A stretch of DNA of 64,000 nt from Bacillus sp. REN16 (GTDB lineage: Bacteria > Bacillota > Bacilli > Bacillales > Bacillaceae_L): the NCBI RefSeq assembly GCF_020731355.1, contig NZ_JAJFZK010000005.1, positions 186,001-250,000 on the forward strand, in the 5' to 3' direction. The notes under the pieces were generated by a model. That model was not told where the DNA came from and searched no databases. It saw only the letters and a program-made list of their open reading frames with translations. The translations under genes were made by a program, and so were the position numbers. Of this stretch, positions 11,056 through 24,402 are shown one piece after another. Position 1 is the first letter of the stretch; every line of letters starts with the position of its first letter.

Positions 11056-11910
11056 ATGGTAAAAAATATGGAAACAACGATTGTAACTGATAGTACAGCT
11101 TACATACCACTGGAACTTCGTGAAAAACTTAATATACATATGATTCCGCTTAGTGTCGTATTTGGAACAGAAAGTTATCGTGAAGAAGTAGATATTACGG
11201 CAGAGGCTTTTTACGAAGAGCTCAAGGCTCGTAAGGATCTGCCAACAACCTCACAGCCGCCGATTGGGGAGTTTGTGGAGCTTTTTGAAAAGCTAGGGCG
11301 GGAGTATGATGCTGTCATTAGTATTCACCTGTCCAGTGGAATTAGCGGGACGTATCAGGGTTCTGTTACAGCGGGTGAAATGGTTGAAGGCGTGAAGGTT
11401 TATTCATTCGACTCTGAAATCAGCTGTATTGTGCAGGGCTTTTATGCGCTGGAAGCTGCGGAAATGGCGAATGCCGGAAAGCCTGTTGAAGAGATTATGG
11501 GGCGCTTAGAAGAAATGAAAATGTCGATGAAAGCCTATTTTATGGTGGATGATCTCACCAATCTTCAGCGTGGGGGTCGCTTGAGCAGTGCAGCGGCTTT
11601 TGTTGGCAGCTTGTTACAGGTAAAGCCAATCCTATGCTTTGAGGAAAAGGTCATTGTACCATTTGAAAAAATTCGTACTCGTAAAAAGGCGTTGAACCGA
11701 GTGTTCGAATTATTTGATGAGGATGCTAGCCAAGGTGTACCAATGCGTGCAGCGCTGATTCACGGAAATATCGAGGAAGAAGCGATTGAATTGAAGGCTG
11801 AACTCGAAAGGAAATACCCGCATGTTGAATTTTTACTAAGCTATTTCGGACCTGTAATCGGGACTCATTTAGGTGAGGGTGCGATTGGGCTAGGTTGGTA
11901 TAAGAAATAA
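11056..11910 (+). CDS. degV: DegV family fatty acid-binding protein (FakB-like)
   Basis: 284 aa from ATG 11056, preceded by GAGGACAGG. ATG 11068 is an alternative, while the longer frame from 10972 overlaps a terminator. The DegV fold is shown by 'TIVTDSTAYIPLELRE' at the start, 'TTSQPPIGEF', 'VISIHLSSGISGTYQGS', 'SFDSEISCIVQG' and the C-terminal 'LLSYFGPVIGTHLGEGAIGLGW'. Family members bind one fatty acid and hand it to the kinase FakA, which makes acyl phosphate for phospholipid synthesis. In B. subtilis this gene (degV/fakBA) is the direct neighbour of degU. Here it is separated from degU by about 6 kb of inserted genes. Cytoplasmic. Confidence 0.92.
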   Translation: MVKNMETTIVTDSTAYIPLELREKLNIHMIPLSVVFGTESYREEVDITAEAFYEELKARKDLPTTSQPPIGEFVELFEKLGREYDAVISIHLSSGISGTYQGSVTAGEMVEGVKVYSFDSEISCIVQGFYALEAAEMANAGKPVEEIMGRLEEMKMSMKAYFMVDDLTNLQRGGRLSSAAAFVGSLLQVKPILCFEEKVIVPFEKIRTRKKALNRVFELFDEDASQGVPMRAALIHGNIEEEAIELKAELERKYPHVEFLLSYFGPVIGTHLGEGAIGLGWYKK

Positions 11911-11915
11911 AAAAT

Positions 11916-11946
11916 GGCGCCGTGCTGTGGTGCGGCGCTGTTTTTG
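11916..11946 (+). terminator. Intrinsic terminator of degV
   Basis: Stem GCGCCG (11917-11922) with CGGCGC (11933-11938), followed by TGTTTTT, directly after the degV stop. Confidence 0.8.
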
Positions 11947-11950
11947 GACA

Positions 11951-11984
11951 AAAAAAGAAATTAGGAGGGGCTCCTAATTTTTTA
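11951..11984. terminator. Bidirectional terminator at the 3' end of the small minus-strand gene
   Basis: A perfect 10-bp stem, AAATTAGGAG (11958-11967) with CTCCTAATTT (11971-11980), has T runs on both sides. It can stop transcription from both strands. The stop codon of the minus-strand gene at 11974 lies inside the stem. Confidence 0.85.
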
Positions 11985-12207
11985 TTAATTGTTCTTTTTG
12001 AGTCGATTTTTCTTTATTTTCTTCCACAGGAACTTTTCTGTACTCATAGCTGCTGTACAGGCTTAGCACAACAAAATAGAGTAACAACAGAACAGTCCAT
12101 GTTGAGGACGTGATTTGAATTTTCTCCTGAAATAATACTGCCATTGCTCCTATGAGTAGAATCGATCCGATGCAAAGCAACAATCCATGCCTTATTACCC
12201 ATTTCAT
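11974..12207 (-). CDS. Small two-pass membrane protein, hypothetical
   Basis: 77 aa. Two hydrophobic segments at about residues 7-26 and 36-53, separated by a short polar stretch ('QEKIQITSS'), are followed by a charged C-terminal tail of about 24 residues rich in Lys and Glu. No family is recognised. AAAGGTAGGG lies upstream of the ATG on the minus strand, and a perfect hairpin with a T run closes the gene, so transcription of this short frame is plausible. It sits between degV and comFA, in a region where B. subtilis has no gene. Confidence 0.55.
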   Translation of the reverse strand: MKWVIRHGLLLCIGSILLIGAMAVLFQEKIQITSSTWTVLLLLYFVVLSLYSSYEYRKVPVEENKEKSTQKEQLIKN

Positions 12208-21114: not shown

Positions 21115-23287
21115 ATGAGAATTAATCACAATATTGCAGCACTTAATACTTATCGTCAGTTGAATAGTGCAGGTAATGCGCAATCAAAATCCATGGAAAA
21201 ATTATCGTCAGGTCTACGAATTAACCGTGCTGGTGATGATGCTGCCGGATTGGCAATCTCTGAAAAAATGCGTGCTCAAGTACGCGGTTTAGACCAAGCT
21301 TCTAAAAATGCTCAAGACGGTAGACAAGAAATGCCGCGCTAAGCAGTAATGCTTAGATGAAAACTCCGTGAATTCGGTGGAACCCCAAACCAAACTAGTA
21401 AGAGTTGATGGTGGGCAATACCGAGCCAAGCCTAATGAATTGGTAAAAAGTAATTAGGAAGGTGTGACGGTCAGGTGGTGAGGAACCATACCAATAACCC
21501 ACCCAAGAGCGCGGAGCACCCAATTAGGGGTGAAGATATGACCTGAACTTTATGGAAACATAAAGAAGCAGAGGATAAAAAGCCACTGCGATAACATAGT
21601 TGATTTCTCTAATTCAAACAGCTGAAGGTGCGTTAAACGAGACTCATGATATTCTTCAACGTATGCGTGAATTAACAGTTCAAAGTAATAATGATACAAA
21701 TACAGCTGATGACCGCGCAGAAATTCAAAAAGAAATTGGTCAATTAGTTCAAGAAGTTGATGGAATTGCTCAACGTACGGAATTCAATACAAAGAACTTA
21801 CTACAAGGTAAAGTTGGGCTTAAACTTGATGCGGTAGATGACGGAACTTTAGATACACTGGCACTTAGTTATGATGTAGATGTTACAAACGCAAAAGCTG
21901 GAACAACGTATACTTTTGGTCACACAAACGATTCCAATGCGATTACTTTATCTGACGGTACAACAACTCAACAGGTTACTGTTGGAACCGCTGGAGCATT
22001 TACTGCTGGTACAGTATTAGACTTCGATAAGCTAGGTGTAAAAATCACACTAAAACAGGGTGGCACATTTGGATCAGATGCTAGTGAGCTAGCATTAAAT
22101 GCTAAAACGCTTATTACTGAAGAGGATGCTTCTATTAACTCCAGTGCAAAAATTCAAATCGGAGCAAATAGTAACCAAACACTAACTATATCTATTTCTG
22201 ATATGAGTGCAAGTAGTCTAGGTTCGTCTGCTACACCTGCATTTGCATTAAATGGTGTTAACGTAACAAGTCAATCATTCGATGATAATTTAGCTGTAAT
22301 TGACCAAGCAATTAAGGATGTCTCTGGTGAACGTTCTAAACTAGGTGCATACCAAAACCGTTTAGATCACACGATTAATAACTTAAACACTTCTTCTGAA
22401 AACCTAACGGCAGCGGAATCTCGTATCCGTGACGTAGATTATGTTTTAGCTGCTTAAGCAGTAACAAGCACAGTCGTCCTAGCTGGTAACGGCTAGAGAT
22501 CATAATCGGGTGAATTGCTGGAAAACCCTTAGAGCTTTTCTTACCACAACGTAGTTGGAAACGACAAGCGTGATGGTTTGAAAAAAGAAAAGATTGGGCA
22601 ATCAGCAGCCAATCTTCTGTCTCGAAAGAGTGGAGAAGGTTCAACGACTAGGATATACCATCTAAAGCGAAAGCTATGATGATGAAATCCATAGGTGAAA
22701 CAATGGTCATCAGCATTGTGAATCCGAAGTGCCCGACCCCTACTAGAAACTTAGAGGGTGAAGATATAGTCTAGTCATTTGTGAAAGCAAATGTTCGCAC
22801 GATGGCGAAAGAAATGATGAACCAAACTAAGAATTCTATTCTTTCTCAAGCAGCACAAGCAATGTTGGCTCAATCGAATCAGATTCCTCAAGGAGTTCTA
22901 CAACTCTTGAGATAATGATTGAAGGGCGTCTAGCTTGGTAACGGGCTAGAGGATAACTGGGTGAATTGCTGGAACTTTCTAAAGCTTCATCAACCACAAC
23001 GTAACTGGAAACGGTAAGCGTGCAGGTCTGAAAATGATGAAGATGAAACAATGGATAATCAGCAGCCAAGCTCCTGTTCCGAAAGGATGGAGAAGGTTCA
23101 ACGACTAGAGAAGTACGGTCTAAGGCAAAAGCTATGACTATGAATCTCGTAGGGCAGCAAAAGCTGTTCGAAGTGCCCAGCTCCATGAAAACCATGGATG
23201 AAGATATAGTCTATTCTGTGACCGAAAGGCATAGCGGCAAAGCAAGCTAACCAACAACCACAAGGAGTTTTACAACTTCTTCGTTAA
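21115..23287 (+). CDS. hag: Flagellin Hag, split by three group I introns (exons 21115-21321, 21603-22439, 22802-22870, 23243-23287)
   Basis: Joining the four exons gives an uninterrupted 385-aa flagellin. Exon 1 carries '[17 protein letters not shown]' and '[20 protein letters not shown]' and ends in QDG. Exon 2 resumes with '[20 protein letters not shown]' and contains the variable centre, up to 'AESRIRDVD'. Exon 3 is '[20 protein letters not shown]' plus MLA. Exon 4 is [14 protein letters not shown] and stop. Both D0/D1 ends are thus canonical. Unspliced frames stop at 21342 and 22457, so an ordinary ORF caller would see two fragments. Each exon ends in T and each intron in G, as group I chemistry requires. 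For intron 2 a boundary 3 nt later on both sides (giving DVDYAKEMM) cannot be excluded. The gene has a sigma-D promoter, a CsrA hairpin and the RBS AAGGAGGAA. Confidence 0.9.
21322..21602 (+). ncRNA. Group I intron 1 of hag (281 nt, no ORF)
   Basis: P1 pairs exon CGGT plus intron A (21318-21322) with TGCCG (21332-21336), including the U-G pair at the splice site. P10 is a perfect GAAAT (21328-21332) with the 3' exon ATTTC (21603-21607). P2 is CTAAGCA/TGCTTAG closed by a GTAA tetraloop (21339-21356). P7 is TCAGGT (21471-21476) with ACCTGA (21541-21546), following the conserved AAGATATGACC. The last base is G. These features fix both splice sites. It is unlike introns 2 and 3 in sequence. Confidence 0.92.
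22440..22801 (+). ncRNA. Group I intron 2 of hag (362 nt, no ORF)
   Basis: The group I core is visible: GGGTGAATTGCTGG (P3/P4 side), GACTA (22646-22650) paired with TAGTC (22767-22771) as P7, and the conserved AAGATATAGTC. P2 is CTAGC/GCTAG (22479-22496). P1 can form as GAT plus T (22437-22440) with AGTC (22472-22475), four pairs with U-G at the junction. The end is placed by the protein: RDVD then MAKEMM. P9 hairpin CATTTG/CAAATG precedes the terminal G. Highly similar to intron 3 in core blocks. Confidence 0.88.
22871..22915 (+). other. Alternative flagellin C-terminus (14 codons plus stop) inside intron 3
   Basis: In frame with exon 3, these codons give [14 protein letters not shown] and TAA. 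The spliced exon 4 gives [14 protein letters not shown]. The peptides agree at 12 of 14 positions, while seven codons differ silently (for example AGA versus CGT for Arg and TTG versus CTT for Leu). So an RNA that keeps intron 3 still makes a full-length flagellin of equal length. Confidence 0.85.
22871..23242 (+). ncRNA. Group I intron 3 of hag (372 nt), with flagellin-tail coding sequence in its 5' end
   Basis: The core blocks match intron 2 (GGTGAATTGCTGGAA, ATCAGCAGCCAA, TGGAGAAGGTTCAACGACTA, AAGATATAGTCT). P1 is GGCT plus C (exon 22868-22870 with flanking base and intron base 22871) paired with GGGC (22924-22927), just before P2 CTAGC/GCTAG (22930-22949), the same arrangement as in intron 2. 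The ends are set by the product [17 protein letters not shown]. The first 45 nt (22871-22915) encode [14 protein letters not shown] and stop in frame with exon 3, inside the P1 loop. Confidence 0.85.
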
Positions 23288-23358: not shown

Positions 23359-24312
23359 TTAGTTAACTTTTGAAGTTCTAAGATACTCGAAATACTCGAT
23401 ACTTTCTCCTTTAGTAAAGCCCGTGCTACTTTGGAAGAATGCTAAATAACACAATTCCTCTCTGTTAAATTCAATTTGATATGAATTCGTTTGTTTATTT
23501 CCATTGCGCAAATTGTTAATATAAAAATTGTAAACATCATTAATATTAATGTTTTTATTAATTTCATTTATCATTGTATGTAAAATTAGTTTGATATCAC
23601 TTGTTGGCATCTCAAAGCTAAGTTCTGATGAAATATATAGTGATGTTCTATGGTGAGGAGGGAAAATAGTTGGGTCTATATTGTTTTGAAACATATCCTT
23701 ACGCTTGATTACAATATACGGCCTTATGATTGATAAGAAATATAAGATGGATGGTTTATCATAAAGGACAAGTCGTTTCTTGCCATCAATGATAAATAAA
23801 ACATTGTATTTTTCTTGTATTAGACCTTTAAGAAATTTAATTTCTTCGATAGAAAATGATTCTGTTGAAATAACTATTTTTTCTGGATTGTTTTTGTTTA
23901 TTTTTAAATTGCCATCATCTTGGTACCACCATGCTAAGCATAATGGTGACAATACCCACTTTATTAAATGAAATGGTACCTTTTTCACTCCGTTGGGATA
24001 CCATATCTTTTTTAACAAAACATACAAATTGTCAACAGTGGATTGAACATAATAAAGGTCTGAGTGACCAGCCACTAAACGATCATCAAAAACTCTTCTG
24101 AATTTAGGCGGGCTAAGTTTAATGTGTTCCCCTAGGCTTTGGTAACTAGTTAAACACCATAAACGGTCTTTTCTAGCATGTCCAAATCTAAATCGTGGTG
24201 ATTTATTTTTTTCTATTAAAATATTGCCATCCCCTAGAAGCTTTCCTGTTAACATTTCTAATAGCCTGGGATCATAGTTTTGAATAAGATACTCAATTAA
24301 ATTGACATCCAT
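23359..24312 (-). CDS. Free-standing LAGLIDADG homing endonuclease
   Basis: 317 aa from ATG 24312 (GAGGTG 6 nt upstream); an ATG at 24333 would add seven residues but has no ribosome site. Two LAGLIDADG-type helices are visible: 'LEMLTGKLLGDG' (about residues 18-29, Asp28) and 'PLCLAWWYQDDG' (about 123-134, Asp132/133), the pattern of a single-chain, two-motif enzyme of the LAGLIDADG DNA-modification type. Such enzymes cut long, rare DNA targets and make the surrounding sequence mobile. It is not inside any intron, but it lies 71 nt past the flagellin stop, on the opposite strand, next to three introns that lack endonuclease genes. A role in their spread, or in spread of its own gene, is inference. 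B. subtilis has no gene here. Confidence 0.88.
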   Translation of the reverse strand: MDVNLIEYLIQNYDPRLLEMLTGKLLGDGNILIEKNKSPRFRFGHARKDRLWCLTSYQSLGEHIKLSPPKFRRVFDDRLVAGHSDLYYVQSTVDNLYVLLKKIWYPNGVKKVPFHLIKWVLSPLCLAWWYQDDGNLKINKNNPEKIVISTESFSIEEIKFLKGLIQEKYNVLFIIDGKKRLVLYDKPSILYFLSIIRPYIVIKRKDMFQNNIDPTIFPPHHRTSLYISSELSFEMPTSDIKLILHTMINEINKNININDVYNFYINNLRNGNKQTNSYQIEFNREELCYLAFFQSSTGFTKGESIEYFEYLRTSKVN

Positions 24313-24402
24313 CAAATTCACCTCAAATGGCATAGTTAGGAACGTATGTTCCTGTGTTTTTATTATACCACTTTCTTTAATTATTAAAATCTTAATTTAA
24401 TT

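Follow-up and report, generated by a model that had tools for sequence, protein, structure and literature searches.

A conserved alternative flagellin C-terminus encoded within a group I intron of hag in Bacillus sp. REN16 and its relatives

Introduction

Group I introns have been described in the flagellin genes of thermophiles, namely Geobacillus stearothermophilus and thermophilic Bacillus, and both self-splicing and temperature-dependent ribozyme activity have been reported for those introns, though not for the one considered here (Hayakawa and Ishizuka, 2009, 2012, as cited in the available parts of PMC3984707 and PMC4853749). The same gene and the same class of intron recur in the DNA analysed here, a stretch of 64,000 nucleotides from Bacillus sp. 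REN16 (contig NZ_JAJFZK010000005.1, positions 186,001 to 250,000 of the forward strand; hereafter the window), in which the flagellin gene hag (21115-23287) is interrupted by three group I introns, each above the Rfam gathering score (RF00028, gathering 50). Intron 3 begins with a second flagellin C-terminus in frame with exon 3, referred to below as the tail, and we consider it probable that this tail is a fail-safe alternative terminal exon that would make unspliced RNA productive.

A conserved alternative coding tail is not mentioned for the thermophile introns in the available parts of PMC3984707 and PMC4853749, and other described systems share single features with the present locus. Mobile open reading frames (ORFs) of fungi have produced C-terminal duplications in Allomyces atp6 and in Glomus atp6, atp9, cox2 and nad3, where endings that are alike in protein and unlike in DNA flank a selfish element (PMC3630166, in part). 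The fungal elements have an endonuclease ORF between the two endings, whereas hag has a ribozyme there, and introns of 342-421 nt leave no room for such an ORF. In Glomus atp6, one ending was not found in mRNA together with the upstream part (PMC3630166, in part), whereas both hag endings are conserved in sequence. In-frame stop codons lie just inside most group I introns, a feature discussed with the interference between translation and splicing (PMC3073962, in part), and hag shares with these introns a stop that would keep ribosomes from the intron core; elsewhere, however, the stop alone matters, while in hag intron 3 the peptide ahead of it would complete the protein (PMC3073962 and PMC3984707, in part). 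IStrons are group I introns that likewise yield more than one protein per gene, via alternative splice sites (PMC4853749 and PMC4227781, in part), but they carry IS605-type transposase ORFs, which hag intron 3 lacks, and the hag variant would arise by not splicing. In our literature search, which covered parts of these sources, neither a flagellin-like tail nor a degron was described for group I introns, and an earlier mention in Hayakawa and Ishizuka (2009, 2012) is possible.

The intronic tail and exon 4

Splicing out introns 1-3 in silico gives a single flagellin of 385 residues, and the product that retains intron 3, with introns 1 and 2 removed, has 385 residues as well; either product requires the removal of introns 1 and 2. 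Exon 3 continues unbroken into intron 3 as caa tcg aat cag att cct caa gga gtt cta caa ctc ttg aga taa (22871-22915). The original prediction, made on the window alone, held that this ending matches that of exon 4 at 12 of 14 residues with seven silent codon differences. A recount gives the same figures, with residues 2 (S in the tail, A in exon 4) and 5 (I and Q) differing and N3, Q4, P6, L10, L12, L13 and R14 encoded by different codons, and the coordinates given earlier are also correct. Scored against Pfam Flagellin_C as C-terminal pieces of 52, 52 and 38 residues, the spliced form obtained 64.6 bits, the retained form 62.6 bits and the form with no tail 43.4 bits.

The RF00028 covariance model matches intron 3 over its full length (model positions 1-253 of 253; Table 1). 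P1 was drawn by eye and pairs GCU/C, the slash marking the splice site, with GGGC, a U.G pair included; a parallel P1 can be drawn by eye for intron 2 (GAU/U with AGUC), and introns 2 and 3 end alike, with a G eight bases past the P9 hairpin. The splice-site signals of intron 3, together with GGGCG, are present in all 77 of the aligned loci described below (Table 1), and gct/c with gggc occurs in 123 of 123 loci, 49 of which were picked by a pattern demanding it. Intron length varies from 342 to 421 nt across the 77 loci, and RF00028 scores 66-84 bits on the tail introns of the named relatives L144, L172, L195, L196, L182 and L141 and 76.8 bits on that of L219. With the core match, the U.G pair at the splice site and the terminal G, hag intron 3 is by comparison a group I intron, whose splicing is predicted. 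According to the window's ORF list, the intron holds no further sense ORF of 60 or more amino acids, and one antisense ORF of 119 amino acids (22836-23195) overlaps it.

Distribution of the tail

We searched 396 genomes of the order (one genome per species), scoring the best two first-look candidates per genome and keeping only matches with at least 380 aligned query bases, so diverged copies would be missed and the counts are lower bounds. At least 77 unique full-length intron-3 loci were found, in 70 genomes with 24 family labels. An intact in-frame tail of 14 residues and a stop is present in 74 of the 77, and exon 4 is intact in every one. The original prediction had called for such an alignment of intron 3 homologues and had held that relatives whose tail is broken without consequence would speak against it: broken tails do exist at three of the 77 loci, which means that the tail is sometimes lost, while the other 74 have kept it. 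Within the window's own family, the full intron with a tail occurs in 5 of 17 genomes including the source genome (6 loci, genome G006 contributing two).

A pattern scan of named genomes, which requires an intact tail and was therefore used for breadth and not for counts of broken tails, gave at least 116 stretches. A proper exon 4 follows 74 of 81 matches in the first 80 loci and 30 of 36 in the remaining loci; among the matches that have none (7 of 81 and 6 of 36), 9 of 13 lie within about 400 bases of the end of the locus. The carriers listed include Heyndrickxia, Geobacillus, Parageobacillus, Anoxybacillus, Exiguobacterium, Planococcus, Sporosarcina, Sporolactobacillus, Brevibacillus, Priestia and Ferdinandcohnia, and Geobacillus jurassicus (L141) and Parageobacillus caldoxylosilyticus (L196) both have the tail intron. 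One carrier lies outside the Bacilli, Caloranaerobacter azorensis (Tissierellia), with an intron of 82.7 bits and the tail QANQLPNGVLQLLR. Three of the pattern matches that lack an exon 4, in Leifsonia (L175), a metagenome-assembled genome of Spirochaetes (L155) and L253, have no group I intron, and we regard them as normal flagellin ends in which GGGCGT occurs by chance. Among phage records, the 20 listed of 196 matches align to the intron core alone (query 173-329) and not to the tail (query 92-136).

Selection on the tail

Two sets of loci were compared, the 74 with an intact tail from the BLAST search, which were also analysed alone, and a set of 123 formed by adding 49 pattern-picked loci. 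Residues Q1, V9, L10, Q11, L12 and L13 are invariant in the 74 tails, while third positions differ by 0.47 per pair. Replacement/silent ratios per site, obtained by counting changes under parsimony along an intron-core tree, are 0.134 for the tail (218 silent and 98 replacement changes), 0.122 for exon 4 and 0.141 for the last 14 codons of exon 3 among the 74 loci, and reading the tail in the two wrong frames raises the ratio to 1.02 and 4.6 (123 loci). On these counts the intronic tail is under protein constraint about equal to that on real exons. This constraint has persisted over considerable divergence, the lowest pairwise core identity among the 74 loci being 0.60, with 41 clusters at 90%.

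The last residue of the tail is that of exon 4 in 73 of 74 loci and in 120 of 123 in the larger set (R-R 106, Q-Q 9, G-G 5, K-R 3), and the change from R to Q or G falls on the same branch in both copies in at least four places (L113, L099, L105 and a clade of five tips with G). The likeness of the two endings is thus kept at the protein level, as had been proposed, and comparison among relatives strongly supports the related claim that an RNA retaining intron 3 would still encode a full flagellin, given the tail intact in nearly all loci, its exon-like codon constraint and its co-variation with exon 4. The conservation of exon 4 implies that splicing occurs, and the conservation of the tail implies that the unspliced RNA is translated.

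Within a locus, tail and exon 4 differ on average at 13.7 of 42 nt and in 6.6 silent codons (74 loci). Drift alone does not account for these silent differences, since the codons used in the tail also promote an RNA hairpin (see below). Gene conversion between the copies is disfavoured as the source of their likeness by the same differences and by the codons of Ser8 in L112 and L116, where the tail has TCC/TCG and exon 4 has AGC; these are unrelated, and the likeness is therefore not simple gene conversion. Chance likeness is ruled out by recurrence in 74 of 77 loci. Were the gene only ever unspliced, with the tail as its sole ending, exon 4 would decay, yet it is intact in 77 of 77.

A probable fail-safe terminal exon

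In the mechanism that we propose, the P1 loop of intron 3 would have been turned into an alternative terminal exon. Splicing would join exon 3 to exon 4 and give the exon-4-type ending; if a ribosome reached the 5' splice site first, or if splicing never took place, the frame would enter the intron and give the tail-type ending. With transcription and translation coupled, many ribosomes would arrive at the 5' splice site while the 3' half of the intron had yet to be transcribed. The stop of the tail would halt them ahead of the guide sequence and keep the ribozyme core free of ribosomes, and the hairpin within the tail may draw the splice site near to the guide sequence. From this stop to the guide sequence there are 7-16 nt across loci, and a terminating ribosome would therefore cover the guide sequence. 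Both routes would lead to a full-length, assembly-competent flagellin, and the intron would therefore be a small burden on a gene expressed at very high levels. We infer translation of both RNAs and assembly of both proteins, and likewise that the arrangement serves to reduce cost rather than to regulate. The original prediction had left the choice between a nearly cost-free intron and isoforms chosen by splicing, and we favour the fail-safe because residues 2-7 are loosely and residues 9-13 strictly constrained.

Several observations weigh against this reading. A pure fail-safe needs no steady difference between the endings, yet Q stands at position 5 in 69 of 74 exon 4s and 1 of 74 tails, and position 2 holds S in 57 of 74 tails and 1 of 74 exon 4s, A being the usual residue there in exon 4. 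In the set of 123 loci, exon 4 is tighter than the tail (0.082 against 0.148, with exon 3 at 0.125). The parsimony p values take changes as independent, and RNA pairing partly sets the codons of the tail, so that its silent sites are themselves under constraint. The terminal residue is K in the tail and R in exon 4 in three of the 123 loci, and outside that set it is Q and R in L229 and K and R in L242 and L245. Finally, intron and exon 4 have been kept at three loci where the tail has not: L101 has an unrelated reading, L114 a remnant with two TAA codons where relatives have CAA, and L117, one of two copies, reads QFEQIAA before its stop.

The steady difference at residues 2 and 5 could be due to RNA or DNA constraint, or it could be functional. 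In the latter sense, splicing efficiency, set for instance by temperature, would pick between endings with different filament packing, FliS binding or export, and the tail would have been retained since its product differs, not since it is the same. Such regulation agrees with the differences just described and with the report that the flagellin introns of thermophiles are temperature-dependent and possibly regulatory (Hayakawa and Ishizuka, 2012, cited in the available part of PMC4853749). We nevertheless regard it as unlikely, given that position 5 of the tail takes ten residues among the 74 loci (M, L, S, I, T, A, R, V, Y and Q), unlike what a specific new function would predict, that residues 9-13 are identical in all 74, and that Flagellin_C scores the two endings alike.

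Hairpin bias in the codons of the tail

The segment 22871-22915 is, by its conservation and position, coding sequence and P1 loop at once. Its commonest codons for Pro6, Leu13 and Arg14 are CCT, TTG and AGA, against CCA, CTT and CGT in exon 4, and this choice favours a stem of CUCAA with UUGAG. Pair 17-39 of this stem is present in 96 of 123 tails, where the composition of the columns predicts 70, against 11 of 123 exon 4s, and a median of 3% of synonymous shuffles are as stable as the real sequence for the tail, against 18% for exon 4. The history of the pair on the tree comprises 14 losses, 6 gains and 4 pair-to-pair changes; covariation is weak, with 5 branches altering both sides. RNAalifold, run on the tail region of 123 sequences, returns P1 and an inner stem; the covariation term is unfavourable (+10.86), and of 50 shuffles of the columns 1 does equally well. 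The comparison of pair counts with exon 4 told more than this fold. The hairpin is a bias and not a fixed structure, because its pair has been both gained and lost and the covariation term is unfavourable.

This pairing bias is what one would expect if the tail were retained for RNA alone, as a structured P1 loop that aids splicing and whose coding capacity is incidental. We hold this to be very improbable, since the constraint is specific to the frame (0.134 and 0.148 within it, 1.02 and 4.6 outside it), VLQLL is invariant and the terminal R, Q or G agrees with exon 4, whereas the stem pair is often lost and its covariation term is unfavourable.

Origin, recombination and mobility

Exon 4 resembles the ordinary flagellin ending: 13 of 14 uninterrupted flagellin endings at the family's loci (L043-L054) end QANQQP. 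For this reason we hold capture of a copy into the P1 loop to be a likelier source of the tail than displacement of a native ending. The tail may, as the original prediction suggested, have been brought in from another flagellin allele by the moving intron; it is exon 4, not the tail, that has the form common in intronless relatives. A third hag copy in genome G006 (L040, 9884-10000) is without intron 3 and ends in QSNQMPQ followed by GVLQLLR, a hybrid of tail-like and exon-4-like codons. Tail-type residues therefore exist in an intronless gene, and the hybrid probably reflects recombination between tail and exon 4 copies.

Rearranged introns were also noted elsewhere. In the second hag copy of genome G005 (L042, about 11679-12071), the 5' part of intron 2 is fused to the 3' part of intron 3 and exon 4; this chimaeric intron looks like a recombination product of introns 2 and 3, and if spliced it would leave exon 3 out. 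Genome G258 (L128, 3998-5463) has a hag with an uninterrupted ending and, downstream of it, three repeats of the 3' end of intron 3 with exon 4, separated by unrelated ORFs and, by eye, an IS200-like remnant. In genome G145 (L091, 2958-3448) an intron-3 core with exon 4 follows an uninterrupted hag ending at a distance of about 0.9 kb, and there is a second, decayed 3' end.

A free-standing LAGLIDADG_2 homing-endonuclease gene faces hag in the window. A homologue (E below 1e-19) is present at 15 other distinct loci among those analysed, at 10 of which it lies no more than 400 nt from a flagellin ending, and it is possible that the gene is a mobility factor for introns that lack an ORF. One homologue, in genome G003, adjoins a hag with intron 2 only. 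That the tail is merely the undecayed leftover of a native ending displaced by a mobile intron that brought its own exon 4 has precedent in the duplicated C-termini, alike in protein and of low DNA identity, of fungal mitochondrial insertions (PMC3630166, in part) and accords with the LAGLIDADG genes beside several of these hag genes, but it is most improbable given the absence of decay in 74 of 77 loci despite deep divergence, the absence of an endonuclease from all 77 introns and the match of the usual intronless ending to exon 4 rather than to the tail. Invasion may all the same have been the origin of the tail, disfavoured as it is as an account of present conservation.

Intron 2 and other introns of the genome

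Read-through into intron 2 has a recurrent ending of another kind. In 75 unique loci it gives YALAA and a stop in 50, ends in Leu-Ala-Ala in 55 and in Ala-Ala in 70, and its last Ala uses all four codons. The transfer-messenger RNA (tmRNA) of the source genome encodes the tag GKENNNFALAA, and ALAA ends 14 of 17 host tags read by ARAGORN. SsrA endings are ClpXP signals. As a confound, a hairpin whose loop holds the stop is possible in the read-through bases, and by eye several of the changes seem to compensate one another; L208, where a different stem is possible, still ends gca gca taa. Neither an Ala-Ala end nor a flagellin tail was present in the read-through into the introns of L001, L003 and L006 in the same genome, which we take to lie in a thymidylate-synthase-like gene and two ribonucleotide-reductase-like genes. 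A degron role for the intron-2 read-through can be put forward only tentatively. It is similarly conceivable, though we lean against it, that one gene carries two opposite insurances, the -YALAA product of intron 2 (-YVLAA in the window), a truncated flagellin of no use, going to ClpXP and the intron 3 product being completed and used.

Further group I intron matches in the source genome, in these presumed thymidylate-synthase-like and ribonucleotide-reductase-like genes, lie on G000:C2 (L001) and G000:C5 (L003, L006 and L008). Two of them pass the cut-off and two fall below it, and they have neither a tail nor an Ala-Ala end. A match below the cut-off abuts the tmRNA gene (G000:C12:291150-291756; L007, L256). 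ARAGORN does not find the tmRNA in the source genome, nor in 13 of 30 others, and an intron may be the cause.

Layout of the hag locus

The window carries a flagellar region that includes hag together with genes that we presume, from their translations, to be flgK, flgL, fliW, csrA, flaG, fliD and fliS; Pfam support is given for hag and the endonuclease only. The features of hag are collected in Table 1. In-frame read-through into intron 1 gives RQEMPR and a stop, without a flagellin-like tail.

Table 1. Features of hag and the adjoining gene, in positions of the window
Feature	Position	Strand	Evidence and remarks
hag exon 1	21115..21321	+	Flagellin_N PF00669; boundary by sequence (GGU before the splice site, intron ends in G) and spliced translation
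Group I intron 1	21322..21602	+	RF00028 21312-21565, 64.8 bits
hag exon 2	21603..22439	+	Flagellin_N and Flagellin_C matches
Group I intron 2	22440..22801	+	RF00028 22445-22793, 86.8 bits
Intron 2 in-frame read-through, YVLAA and stop	22440..22457	+	SsrA-like ending; stop codon in loop of possible hairpin; putative degron
hag exon 3, ending AMLA, GCU before the splice site	22802..22870	+	Sequence and spliced translation
Group I intron 3, 372 nt	22871..23242	+	RF00028 22888-23234, 70.1 bits; 77 aligned loci, this one included
Alternative flagellin C-terminus encoded by intron 3, 14 residues and stop	22871..22915	+	Between 5' splice site and guide sequence, i.e. the P1 loop
P1 5' strand GCU/C, including splice-site U	22868..22871	+	Sequence; gct in 77/77 loci
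Internal guide sequence GGGC	22924..22927	+	8 nt 3' of the tail stop
Hairpin inside tail, stem CUCAA (22887-22891) / UUGAG (22907-22911)	22887..22911	+	Codons of the tail favour the pairs, those of exon 4 do not
Intron 3 terminal G (omega G)	23242	+	G in 77/77; CAA or CAG next in 77/77
hag exon 4, 14 residues and stop	23243..23287	+	Sequence; kept in 77/77
Free-standing LAGLIDADG_2 homing-endonuclease gene adjoining hag	23359..24333	-	PF03161, E 2.4e-22

Implications

A flagellin gene is normally very highly expressed, and the arrangement described here would be a widespread solution for an intron in such a gene: the exon that the intron splits off has a spare inside the intron, and this spare is under exon-like purifying selection. 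The arrangement implies routine translation of unspliced flagellin mRNA, and it thereby touches on the published idea that flagellin introns may allow motility to be regulated by temperature: if the introns of the thermophiles have the tail, failure of intron 3 splicing alone should not stop flagellin synthesis. The locus could also serve as a simple test system for competition between ribosome and ribozyme. If the opposite roles suggested for introns 2 and 3 are true, group I introns of abundant bacterial genes would evolve coding P1 loops, with the peptide matched to the completeness of the protein at that point. A rule for other introns may follow, which is to seek exon copies or degron-like ends just inside their 5' splice sites.

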